A stretch of 12,277 bases of DNA from Desulfobacterales bacterium (GTDB lineage Bacteria > Desulfobacterota > Desulfobacteria > Desulfobacterales > UBA2174_A), in the NCBI GenBank assembly GCA_025454075.1, contig JALOPD010000188.1, positions 1 to 12,277 of the forward strand, given 5' to 3'. A program made the translations under genes and the position numbers. Positions 4,881 through 9,667 of the stretch are shown in pieces. How positions within the stretch are numbered: position 1 is the first letter of the stretch; every line of letters starts with the position of its first letter. The notes under the pieces were generated by a model. It saw only the letters and a program-made list of their open reading frames with translations. It had not been told where the DNA came from and did not search any database.

Positions 4881-5510
4881 TCATTCCTCCGATGGGGGCT
4901 TTTCCTTCTTTTTCCTTTTAACCACCAGCTTCAAGCTTTTGGCTGCCGTCTTTCTTGCCCTCGGTCTTCCCGGCGCGGGCGCCGGTTGCTCCTTCATACG
5001 GTCTTCCGGCGCGCTCGCGGCCACCTTAGCCGGGTCTGGCCCATCTTCCCCTTCGAACGCCTCCGGCGGCGCCTCGGGGTCGCCGCACGGCAGCTGCAGT
5101 TCGCCGGCCTCGACCGCGGCGCGGATGCTGTCCACGATGCCGTTGATGAAGGCGCCCGACTCCTCGGTCCCGAACTTCTTGCCGATGTCGACCGCCTCGT
5201 TGATGCTGACCTTGGCAGGGATGTCCCGGCAGCACACCATCTCGTAGACCGCGATGCGCATCACGTTGCGGTCGACCCCGGACATGCGCCCCAGGCTCCA
5301 GTTCTCCGAAAAGCGCTCGATCAGGGGGTCCAGTTCGGTCTGGGACCGCAGCACGCCGCGGACCAGCCTCAAAAAAAACGGCCGGACGTCAGGCTTGGGT
5401 GCAAAGTTGGCGCAAAACCTGCCGAAGGTCTCCTCCGAAAAATCCCTGCGGGTGTCCATGTAGAAAAGGGCCTGCATGGCCAGCTCGCGCGCCTTGCGAC
5501 GGGTGCCCAT
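4881..5510 (-). CDS. nusB: Transcription antitermination factor NusB with long basic C-terminal tail
   Basis: NusB binds boxA RNA with NusE/S10 and helps antitermination of rRNA operons. Residues 1 to about 135 are the all-helical NusB domain: MGTRRKARELAMQALFYMD, then LDPLIERFSENWSLGRMS, DRNVMRIAVYEM, and the characteristic SINEAVDIGKKFGTEESGAFINGI. The protein is 209 residues, against roughly 130-165 for most NusB. The extra 70 residues are a low-complexity acidic/proline stretch (about 140-180) followed by a strongly basic end (RPRARKTAAKSLKLVVKRKK). The gene starts 3 nt after the ribH stop and ends 1 nt before the hydrolase, as in rib-nus operons of this group. Its weak ribosome site (TAAGGG) overlaps the ribH stop, so it may depend on ribosomes arriving from ribH, which is broken here. 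Confidence 0.95.
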   Translation of the reverse strand: MGTRRKARELAMQALFYMDTRRDFSEETFGRFCANFAPKPDVRPFFLRLVRGVLRSQTELDPLIERFSENWSLGRMSGVDRNVMRIAVYEMVCCRDIPAKVSINEAVDIGKKFGTEESGAFINGIVDSIRAAVEAGELQLPCGDPEAPPEAFEGEDGPDPAKVAASAPEDRMKEQPAPAPGRPRARKTAAKSLKLVVKRKKKEKPPSEE

Positions 5511-5513
5511 CCC

Positions 5514-5878
5514 TTACACGGCGTCGAACAGGTTGACCATCTCGACGGCGGCCATGGCGGCGCTGAAGCCCTTGTTGTCGAGTTTGGCGCCGGCCCGTTC
5601 GATGGCCTGCTCGATGGTGTCCACCGTGATCACGCGGCCCCCAGGCAGATGAGCGCGTCAAAGCGCTTGGTGCGGGCCACGCGTTTGGCCACCAGCGGGA
5701 TCTCGAACGCCCCCGGTACCTTGAACACCTCGATGTCCTTGTCCTTGGCGCCGCAGCGGTTCAGCGCGTCCAAGGCCCCGCCGACCAGCTTCTCGGTGAT
5801 GAAATCGTTGTAGCGGCTCGCCACGATGGCGAACTTCTTTCCCTCCGCGTTGAGTTTCCCTTCGATGATCTTCGGCAT
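5514..5878 (-). pseudogene. ribH: 6,7-dimethyl-8-ribityllumazine synthase, disrupted by internal deletion and frameshift
   Basis: RibH condenses 5-amino-6-ribitylaminouracil with 3,4-dihydroxybutanone phosphate to make lumazine, the last intermediate before riboflavin. The intact N-terminal frame (5878-5633, 82 codons, [16 protein letters not shown]) shows VASRYNDFI and the VPGAFEIPL substrate loop, then reads ICLGAA and hits TGA at 5632-5630. The C-terminal part continues in another frame from about 5639 ([17 protein letters not shown] to a TAA at 5516-5514, about 39 codons). Compared with the family, roughly 34 residues are missing between ICLGA and GVIT, including the RG-T-H segment with the catalytic histidine, and the gap is about 3n+1 bases, near 100. 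It has a good ribosome site (GGAAGGAG). Either a real pseudogene or an assembly error; identity as ribH is certain. Confidence 0.9.
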
Positions 5879-5892
5879 CCTCGCTCCTTCCG

Positions 5893-5965
5893 GGTTTGGT
5901 TGAACAGAAAAAAGTTGAACAGAGAAAAAGTTCAAATGAAAACCGTAAAAAGGAAACGGTTGAAC
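5893..5965 (-). repeat. Degenerate short tandem repeats upstream of ribH
   Basis: On the minus strand, units of about 15 bp of the type TGTTCAACTTTTTTC recur three to four times (GGTTCAACCG, TTTGAACTTTTTC, TGTTCAACTTTTTTC, TGTTCAACC). The run ends next to the ribH ribosome site. A similar unit (TTCGGTTTAACCAAAC) precedes proS, and related sequence in the opposite orientation lies at about 6328-6378. The function is unknown. Confidence 0.45.
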
Positions 5966-6000
5966 CGGAAACCGGCCGGCAATACGGCCACCCCGCCTGT

Positions 6001-6317
6001 TTATTACTCCGGCAAGTAAATATATCCAATACCATCATCTCACGCAGAGGCGGAGCGGGGGGCCCGCCGCGGCGAGCCGCAACCCATTCTTCAGGCGACG
6101 CTGCCACGCCCCCCAGCCGTCTCATGGAACCGATGGCAGGCAGCGACGGCCGGATGCTCCGTGAGAATCAATCCTCCGGGGCTGTCCGGGTCGGTATGGA
6201 GCGAGCTGGCTGCCGTGCGTTGGTTCGTTGAACGGGTGGTTGCGGCTCGCCGCGGCGGGCCCCCCGCTCCGCCTGACATCGGCTGAAGTTGTACCTGTTT
6301 TATTGCCGGAGTAATAA
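6001..6317. repeat. Dyad-symmetric intergenic element with nested inverted repeats, between ribBA and ribH
   Basis: This sits in a 504-bp gap without a credible gene. Two concentric inverted repeats share a centre near 6160. The outer arms are TTATTACTCCGGCAA (6001-6015) and its exact complement (6303-6317). The inner arms, 6048-6084 and 6238-6274, are perfect 37-bp, very GC-rich complements. The 153-bp core (6085-6237) shows no ORF with family features or ribosome site. No transposase, no clear target duplication and no known riboswitch signature is seen. It resembles a MITE or REP/BIME-like dispersed repeat. As RNA it would form an extremely stable stem inside the rib operon message, upstream of ribH. 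Fragments related to it occur at 2010-2030, 2231-2244 and 8410-8437. Confidence 0.8.
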
Positions 6318-6382: not shown

Positions 6383-7597
<1,215 letters not shown>

Positions 7598-7613
7598 AGA
7601 AAACTCCAAAACC

Positions 7614-7717: not shown

Positions 7718-8377
7718 CTATTTGATGTACCCCGCCTTGGCGAGGAGCTCCATGCTCACCCCCTGCGACGGGGGCCCGGGATGCTCCTGTTTCGCCGACA
7801 GGAATTTTTCCACGTACTTGCCGATCATGTCGGTTTCGATGTTGACGGGTTCCCCCGTGCGCTTGAGCCCGATGGCGGTCATGCCGGCCGTGTGGGGGAT
7901 GATGCTCACCGTGAAGCGACCCGGCTCCAGAGTGTTGATGGTCAGGCTGATGCCGTCCACGGCGACCGATCCTTTGACGATCATGTAGCGCGTGAGCGCC
8001 GCGGGCACGGCCACGGCGATGACGACGGCGTTGCCGGCCGTTTCGCGCCCGTCGATCGCACCCGTTCCGTCGATGTGACCGGACACCAGGTGGCCGTCGA
8101 TGCGGTCCGAAAGGCGCAGGGCCCGTTCGAGGTTCATGCGCTGGCCCACGCGGGCGGCCCCGAGCGTGGTTTTCGCGAGGGTTTCCGGCGAGACGTCGAC
8201 CTCGAAGCGCCGGCCGGCCAACCGGACCGCCGTGAGGCAGGCCCCGCTCACGGCAATGCTGTCGCCGACCTTGGTGCCGGCCAGGTCGAAATCGGACTCG
8301 ACGATCAGCCGCTTGCCCGCCCCGGAGGGCCGGATCCCGGCGATTACCCCCAGGCCTTCAATGATTCCGGTGAACAT
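7718..8377 (-). CDS. ribE: Riboflavin synthase, alpha subunit type
   Basis: Dismutates two molecules of 6,7-dimethyl-8-ribityllumazine to riboflavin and the pyrimidine that RibH reuses. The 219-residue product begins MFTGIIEGLGVI, the hallmark of the family. It shows two homologous barrels: residues 1 to about 97 and about 98-200, the second opening SGHIDGTGAI. Further expected motifs are SGACLTAV, VSPETLAKTTLG and NIETDMIGKYVEKFL. A C-terminal helix completes the trimer-forming form. The ATG at 8377 is the family start, though its ribosome site is weak (GAGCG). It lies between ribD and ribBA, the standard order. The gene is intact, which makes the broken ribH beside it stand out, because RibE needs lumazine as substrate. 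Confidence 0.97.
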   Translation of the reverse strand: MFTGIIEGLGVIAGIRPSGAGKRLIVESDFDLAGTKVGDSIAVSGACLTAVRLAGRRFEVDVSPETLAKTTLGAARVGQRMNLERALRLSDRIDGHLVSGHIDGTGAIDGRETAGNAVVIAVAVPAALTRYMIVKGSVAVDGISLTINTLEPGRFTVSIIPHTAGMTAIGLKRTGEPVNIETDMIGKYVEKFLSAKQEHPGPPSQGVSMELLAKAGYIK

Positions 8378-8409: not shown

Positions 8410-8437
8410 CCGGTCTAAATAGGTACAACTGCAGCCG
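8410..8437 (-). repeat. Dispersed repeat CGGCTGCAGTTGTACCT in the ribD-ribE gap
   Basis: The minus strand reads CGGCTGCAGTTGTACCTATTT then AGACCGG. At 6280-6309 the plus strand reads CGGCTGAAGTTGTACCTGTTT then TATTGCCGG, differing at two of the first 21 bases. The shared segment lies next to the outer arm of the element at 6001-6317, so this may be another fragment of that repeat family. The rest of the 183-bp gap (8378-8560) shows no gene; AAGGTTGAAAGGTCGAAG microrepeats follow the ribD stop. Confidence 0.5.
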
Positions 8438-8560
8438 TTATCAGACGGATCGGAGTGCCCGCCGCAGCGCCGCAACGCCCTTGCCCATTTTAAGAACGGT
8501 TTGCGATTGTTCAATCTCTGGTCCGGGCGTGGAGACCCTCTCTCTTTGAACTTCGACCTT

Positions 8561-9667
8561 TCAACCTTGGATCCCGACGACATACCCCTCGATCATCACG
8601 TCGTCCCCGAAACGCAGCGTCCGGATCCGCTCCAGCCGGATGGCGTCCTTGATCCGCTCCGCACCGCCGCCCCGGCAAACAGGGACGCCGTCGTCTCCGC
8701 CCAGAATCAACGGTGCGTAGAAAAAGCACACTTTGTCGACGATGCCGGCCTTGAAAGCCGAGGCCAGCACCCGGCTGCCGCCCTCGACCAGGATGCTGGC
8801 GACACCCATCGAGCCCAGCCGGGCGGCCAACGCCGCCATGTCGACCCGTCCCTCCCGGGTCTCCACCTCGATCACCTGCACCCCCTTGCGGGCGATGCGG
8901 CGTTTGGCGTCATCGGGCGCGCCGCGCCCGGCAACCACCAGCGTGTCGGCCGGGGAGGCGTGGTTCAACACCCGGGCGGTCGGGGCGATCCGCAGCTGCG
9001 TGTCCAGAATGACGCGGATCGGGTCCTTGGGCCGGCGGCGGACGATTCGTGCCGTCAGGAGAGGGTCGTCGGCGGCGACGGTCCCGGCGCCCACCAGGAC
9101 GGCATCCACGGCGCAGCGCAGCTCGTGCACGAACGCCCGGGCGGACTCGCCGGTGATCCATTTGGAATCCCCGGTCCGGGTGGCGATCCGGCCGTCCAGG
9201 GTGGCGGCGCACTTGGCGATCACAAAGGGCCGGCCGGTGCAGGCGTGTTTGACGAAGGCCTCGTTGAGCTGCCGGGCCTCCTCCGCGCACACCCCGAGCG
9301 TGGTGTCGATCCCTCTGGCTTTCAGGAATTCCGCGCCGCCGCCCACCACCCGCGGGTTGGGGTCCTGCATGCCGATAACGACGCGCCGGATGCCGGCCTC
9401 GATGATCTTGAGCGTGCAGGGCGGGGTCCGCCCGGTGTGGTTGCAGGGCTCGAGGGTCACGTAAAGCGTCGCGCCGCGCGACTGTGCACCCGCCGCATCG
9501 ATGGCAACCACTTCGGCGTGGGGCCCGCCCGCGAACTCGTGAAAGCCGCGGCCGACCACCTCCCCATCCCGGACCACGAGGGCCCCCACCATCGGGTTGG
9601 GGGATGTGGTGCCCCGTCCTTGAGCGGCCAGCTCCAGCGCCGCCCGCATGAAACGCTCGTCGTTCAA
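8561..9667 (-). CDS. ribD: Bifunctional diaminohydroxyphosphoribosylaminopyrimidine deaminase / 5-amino-6-(5-phosphoribosylamino)uracil reductase
   Basis: Carries out the second and third steps after GTP cyclohydrolase II: deamination of the pyrimidine and NADPH-dependent reduction of the ribose. The 368 residues have an N-terminal cytidine-deaminase-like domain (1 to about 145) with H50-A-E52 and PCNHTGRTPPC (C75, C84) as zinc ligands and proton shuttle. The C-terminal DHFR-like reductase domain (about 146-368) has RPFVIAKCAATLDGRIAT, WITGE and ILVEGGSRVLASAF. The start is TTG at 9667, giving MNDERFM, which matches family N-termini; the next ATG (9649) would cut six residues. GGAAAGG lies upstream but about 14 bases away. 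It begins 24 bp after the nrdR stop and heads the riboflavin part of the operon. Confidence 0.96.
   Translation of the reverse strand: MNDERFMRAALELAAQGRGTTSPNPMVGALVVRDGEVVGRGFHEFAGGPHAEVVAIDAAGAQSRGATLYVTLEPCNHTGRTPPCTLKIIEAGIRRVVIGMQDPNPRVVGGGAEFLKARGIDTTLGVCAEEARQLNEAFVKHACTGRPFVIAKCAATLDGRIATRTGDSKWITGESARAFVHELRCAVDAVLVGAGTVAADDPLLTARIVRRRPKDPIRVILDTQLRIAPTARVLNHASPADTLVVAGRGAPDDAKRRIARKGVQVIEVETREGRVDMAALAARLGSMGVASILVEGGSRVLASAFKAGIVDKVCFFYAPLILGGDDGVPVCRGGGAERIKDAIRLERIRTLRFGDDVMIEGYVVGIQG

Follow-up and report, generated by a model that had tools for sequence, protein, structure and literature searches.

The Locus and Its Genes

The window, that is, the whole stretch of 12,277 nucleotides analysed here, carries on its minus strand the genes nrdR, ribD, ribE, ribBA, ribH and nusB (Table 1), and the order ribD-ribE-ribBA-ribH-nusB is the same as in the loci of four relatives (L001-L004). 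Among the genes checked, ribH is the only broken one. Its frame begins with ATG at 5878 and is closed after 82 codons by TGA at 5632-5630, as read from both the list of open reading frames and the sequence itself, where a single open frame of about 154 codons is expected for a lumazine synthase. A second piece lies one frame over, from GTG at 5633 to 5517 with its stop TAA at 5516-5514, and all of its residues (39/39) are identical in the relative L086 (G005). The TGA of the N-terminal piece overlaps the GTG opening the C-terminal frame (GTGA, 5633-5630). Both pieces pass the curated cut-off of PF00885, 26.7 bits, with 85.8 (N-terminal) and 39.4 bits (C-terminal), and at the E values of the two matches the identity of the gene as ribH is not due to chance.

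Table 1. Features of the ribH region, in order of position in the window
Feature	Position	Strand	Description
nusB, open	4881..5510	minus	PF01029, E 1.5e-36; ATG at 5510, 3 nt after the stop of the ribH C-terminal piece
ribH C-terminal piece	5633-5514	minus	39 aa, VITVDTIEQ...DAV + TAA; PF00885 profile 104-138, E 7.1e-10
ribH deletion junction	5633..5637	minus	100 nt fewer than in relatives; located to within 1-2 bases
ribH N-terminal piece	5878-5633	minus	82 aa, MPKIIEG...ICLGAA; PF00885 profile 2-68, E 3.3e-24
Terminal-inverted-repeat element, 317 nt, in the ribBA-ribH spacer	6001..6317		15-nt ends TTATTACTCCGGCAA; inner 37-nt perfect inverted repeat
ribBA, intact	6383..7609	minus	PF00926 + PF00925
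ribE (riboflavin synthase), intact	7718..8377	minus	PF00677, two stretches
ribD, intact	8561..9667	minus	PF01872 + PF00383

The neighbours of ribH are in good order. The preliminary description had called ribD, ribE and ribBA intact and had placed the start of nusB 3 nt after the ribH stop, and both statements hold, since the three genes match their family profiles without an internal stop and the ATG at 5510 follows the TAA at that distance. Besides ribH, eleven genes (ispG, mltF, orf146, mbl, nusB, ribBA, ribE, ribD, nrdR, a deaminase gene and fabF) are free of internal stops, and for each of them one relative or more could be aligned along almost the full gene; for the final third of nusB this was G005 alone, and in L003 and L004 no match to mltF was obtained. 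A sequence rich in errors is therefore not supported. The gene proS, cut by the window end, is open as far as seen. RibBA is 83-87% identical to the compared relatives over nearly its whole length, and its best matches are Desulfobacterales metagenome-assembled genomes, the top four being 87, 86, 84 and 83% identical. A 146-aa open reading frame on the plus strand (2281-2721) is conserved in L001 and L002, at 56% and 64% over its length, and appears by eye to consist of two similar halves (VKCQLGLFG and VKPCQLGAF). No Rfam match at the gathering threshold was obtained, whether for an FMN riboswitch or for another known RNA.

The early ribH stop lies 119 nt before the ATG of nusB and, judged from the sequence, could plausibly lower the translation of nusB. 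Because the TGA overlaps the GTG opening the C-terminal frame, reinitiation toward nusB is possible, and it could keep part of the ribH-nusB coupling.

The Missing Part of ribH

Lumazine synthases (RibH, PF00885, 6,7-dimethyl-8-ribityllumazine synthase) form icosahedral or pentameric assemblies. The ribH of the window matches both ends of the family profile but, unlike the family, lacks positions 69-103 of its 139 positions and has a broken frame. Aligned to six relatives it shows a gap of 100 columns, and the loss is exactly 100 nt, that is, 33 codons plus one nucleotide (3 x 33 + 1). The preliminary description had proposed an internal deletion of about 100 bp with a frameshift, about 34 missing residues and a missing length of 3n+1, all of which the alignment and the spacing in relatives bear out and make exact. 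The segment RG(A/S)TPHFD with its conserved histidine is absent from the window and kept in the six aligned relatives and in 1hqk; in solved lumazine synthases, 1hqk among them, the RGATPHFD segment of the relatives has its aligned counterpart, and P0002, an intact and near-identical relative, aligns to these structures over nearly its full length. The catalytic-His segment is therefore lost as had been described, this histidine being the one which we take to be the catalytic residue. As written, a ribH with a 100-base gap should not yield a working enzyme. Apart from the gap, it is an ordinary gene of an uncultured Desulfobacterales-type bacterium.

Among the loci compared, the loss is seen in the window alone. 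From the CLGA codons to the VIT codons the spacing, measured by script and extrapolated from the ends of tblastn matches, is 2 nt in the window and 102 nt in 96/96 measurable locus copies. These copies are 72 of the 80 loci L001-L080, together with 24 loci retrieved again from G001-G007; at eight loci (L010, L027, L028, L034, L039, L047, L067 and L080) the spacing was not measurable. Counted as distinct relatives, of which G005-G007 are new beyond the L001-L080 set, all 75 informative ones have the 102-nt spacing, which rules out a divergent but intact ribH. The same junction, which the preliminary description had proposed to look for in close relatives, occurs in none of these 75.

What remains of the gene is constrained like a working gene. 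For the N-terminal piece, dN/dS between the window and L002, L001, G005, G006 and G007 is 0.09, 0.11, 0.12, 0.07 and 0.12, and for the C-terminal piece 0.13, 0.08, 0, 0.05 and 0.02, respectively; against L003 and L004 it is 0.25-0.27 for the N-terminal piece and 0.10 and 0.06 for the C-terminal one. The five nearest relatives compared among themselves give 0.09-0.22 (N-terminal) and 0.02-0.17 (C-terminal). The window's pieces thus show no relaxed constraint and have dN/dS like intact relatives, in values which average both branches and are blind to a short relaxed period, so that they would miss a very recent loss. Since there has been no long drift in the pieces, either the lesion arose very recently or it has no biological origin.

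ribH in Related Genomes

Of the genomes compared, the nearest by ribH DNA is G005 (89% over the N-terminal and 93% over the C-terminal piece), and the window appears to belong to the family and genus of G002. The seven genomes examined for this family are also those of the genus, and exactly one ribH match without an internal stop is found in each of the seven, so the same deletion throughout the genus is rejected. In an even sample of 291 genomes of the order, ribH is present in 274 and without a match in 17, which may be incomplete assemblies; internal stops were assessed among the matches listed. Weak or double matches in six genomes were looked into (G085, G107, G118, G093, G167 and G271): partial pieces lie at contig ends in the first four, a second match in G167 does not reach the cut-off, and two complete ribH matches are present in G271. 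Among these six, no further broken ribH of the order was recognised. Three of the four contig-end cuts fall at profile positions 66-95, that is, within or adjoining the lost part. A back-up copy in the organism of the window is possible but unlikely, because only one of the 274 ribH-bearing genomes has two complete copies.

Intact and Broken RibH Proteins

In the protein search, scoring covered the 8000 candidates with the most words in common, and the best 120 were considered; residues were compared in the 103 of those 120 matches that are 154 aa long, the 17 of other lengths being left out. Intact RibH proteins very close to that of the window exist, P0001, P0002 and P0003 having 2, 3 and 4 differences, respectively, over the 120 residues remaining in the window. 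Moreover, a NusB protein identical to that of the window (P0239) is present on nine contigs, the longest of 29228 bases; one of the nine may be the window's own and several may share one study.

The window junction was found as a protein end in none of 118 short RibH-like proteins in a database clustered at 90%. Because of this clustering the absence of the truncated RibH is weak evidence, and the window's own N-terminal piece is likewise absent from the database listing. The short proteins include 77 N-terminal pieces ending over residues 40-139, with 15 ends in residues 90-99 and 14 in 70-79. The best short match, P0121, is 96% identical over 83% of the N-terminal piece, lies on a contig of 64870 bases, and looks by eye frameshifted at about residue 68 without a visible large loss. 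Three public metagenome proteins (P0126, P0127 and P0195) have, like the window, internal losses with both ends kept; unlike the window they stay in frame, and none of these or P0121 has the window's junction. All four are perhaps further assembly errors or pseudogenes of ribH, and such broken records in close relatives shift the odds of error versus mutation neither way. No ribH loss in this group is named in the portions of the literature that the search returned.

The Junction and the Neighbouring Repeat Element

In six of the seven nearest relatives the hexamer GTGATC stands on both sides of the lost part; L001 is without the right-side copy. Slippage between these two repeats was rejected, as it would remove 102 nt in frame and the observed loss is 100 nt. 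A junction of this kind comes out of a k-mer assembler only by way of reads or a scaffolding step. Exact words of at least 31 nt that nine relatives have in common are denser in the lost segment, with 6 in its 102 nt, than in the rest of the region, with 38 in ~2,400 nt; the two longest (63 and 59 nt) are found in other parts of ribH, and ribBA and the spacer contain the majority (25/44). The shared words and the contig-end cuts, which are small and non-independent numbers, give a hint that assembly from mixed communities is difficult in this stretch.

The 317-nt element in the ribBA-ribH spacer is a neighbour of the lesion and not part of it. Members of its family are found at dozens of sites in the genomes of two relatives, DNA related to it giving at least 62 matches in G001 and at least 52 in G002 (best 40 candidates per genome), which are matches and not distinct copies, as the arms also match. 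One short match each was found in G005 and G006, and none in G003, G004 or G007. Eight of the nine end-to-end copies measured in G001 and G002 are 317-318 nt long and one is 315 nt; the exact end repeat TTATTACTCCGGCAA occurs 35 times in G001, 26 times in G002 and not at all in G005 and G006. No clear target-site duplication was seen at the element, which we would guess to be MITE-like or REPIN-like. Partial pieces of it lie elsewhere in the window (8417-8476 and 2230-2245). In addition, the ribH leader (5899-5973) contains three imperfect copies of GTTGAACAGAAAAAA; it has no long match in the relatives' loci, and its weak match to positions 793-835 of the window (79% over 43 nt, E 0.029) falls directly upstream of a proS-like start at 780.

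Origin of the Gap

The absence of decay, the near-identical intact proteins and the lack of a second sighting of the junction incline us toward either a faulty assembly or an event that happened very recently. Of these, a local assembly or sequencing error at the conserved ribH stretch is judged, with some reservation, the most likely cause of the gap, with somewhat better odds than a real deletion of recent date. Such an error at the conserved core would drop 100 nt from the assembled sequence; the organism itself would be without the gap, and ribH is probably intact in the living population. That ribH is the sole broken gene checked, that its pieces are constrained and that the 102-nt spacing is found in 75/75 relatives speak for this; what speaks against it is that the assembler would need reads or a scaffolding step to make the join, and that the only repeat seen at the junction is the short GTGATC, whose joining would remove 102 nt. 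A real and very recent deletion, which we hold to be a serious but less probable account, would mean that lumazine synthase has been lost and that riboflavin or 6,7-dimethyl-8-ribityllumazine comes from neighbours, or that a dying lineage or a minority allele was sequenced. The sequence as given does show the gap between clean flanking genes, a very recent event fits the lack of decay, the 317-nt element, which was not found in that spacer of L001-L004, indicates that the locus has changed in the lineage, and the ribH of a close relative (P0121) is also recorded as broken, though possibly by sequence error too. Against it stand the intact ribD, ribE and ribBA, the presence of ribH in nearly all genomes of the order sample, the near-identical intact proteins and the failure of the junction to reappear among the short RibH proteins.

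The preliminary description had left three outcomes for its deletion and frameshift in an otherwise intact operon: riboflavin auxotrophy, another ribH, or a wrong assembly. The lesion itself has stood; of the outcomes, base rates (1/274) speak against a second ribH. A real deletion compensated by such a copy elsewhere in the genome has a precedent in G271 and is nevertheless very improbable in view of that rate and of the single match in each genome of the G002 family. Still harder to credit is a split enzyme, in which the N-terminal piece, the stop, reinitiation at GTG and the C-terminal piece would together give a reduced enzyme that is assembled: the GTGA overlap and a C-terminal frame open to the native stop would allow it, but the 33 absent residues with RGATPHFD are not restorable by a split, and reading the conserved GTGATC in a shifted frame is enough to produce the TGA of the N-terminal piece.

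Implications

If the gap is an artefact, as we favour, riboflavin auxotrophy should not be called from one assembly unless reads support the conserved ribH core, where a few other assemblies break as well. If it is real, the window would capture a vitamin auxotrophy at its very start, lumazine synthase being lost while ribD, ribE and ribBA, the remaining genes of the pathway in the window, are intact. A bolder form of the latter, which we regard as unlikely, is that a free-living bacterium related to sulfate reducers has just given up the lumazine-synthase step alone and now depends on its community for riboflavin or its lumazine precursor, while reinitiation at GTGA would keep nusB translated.
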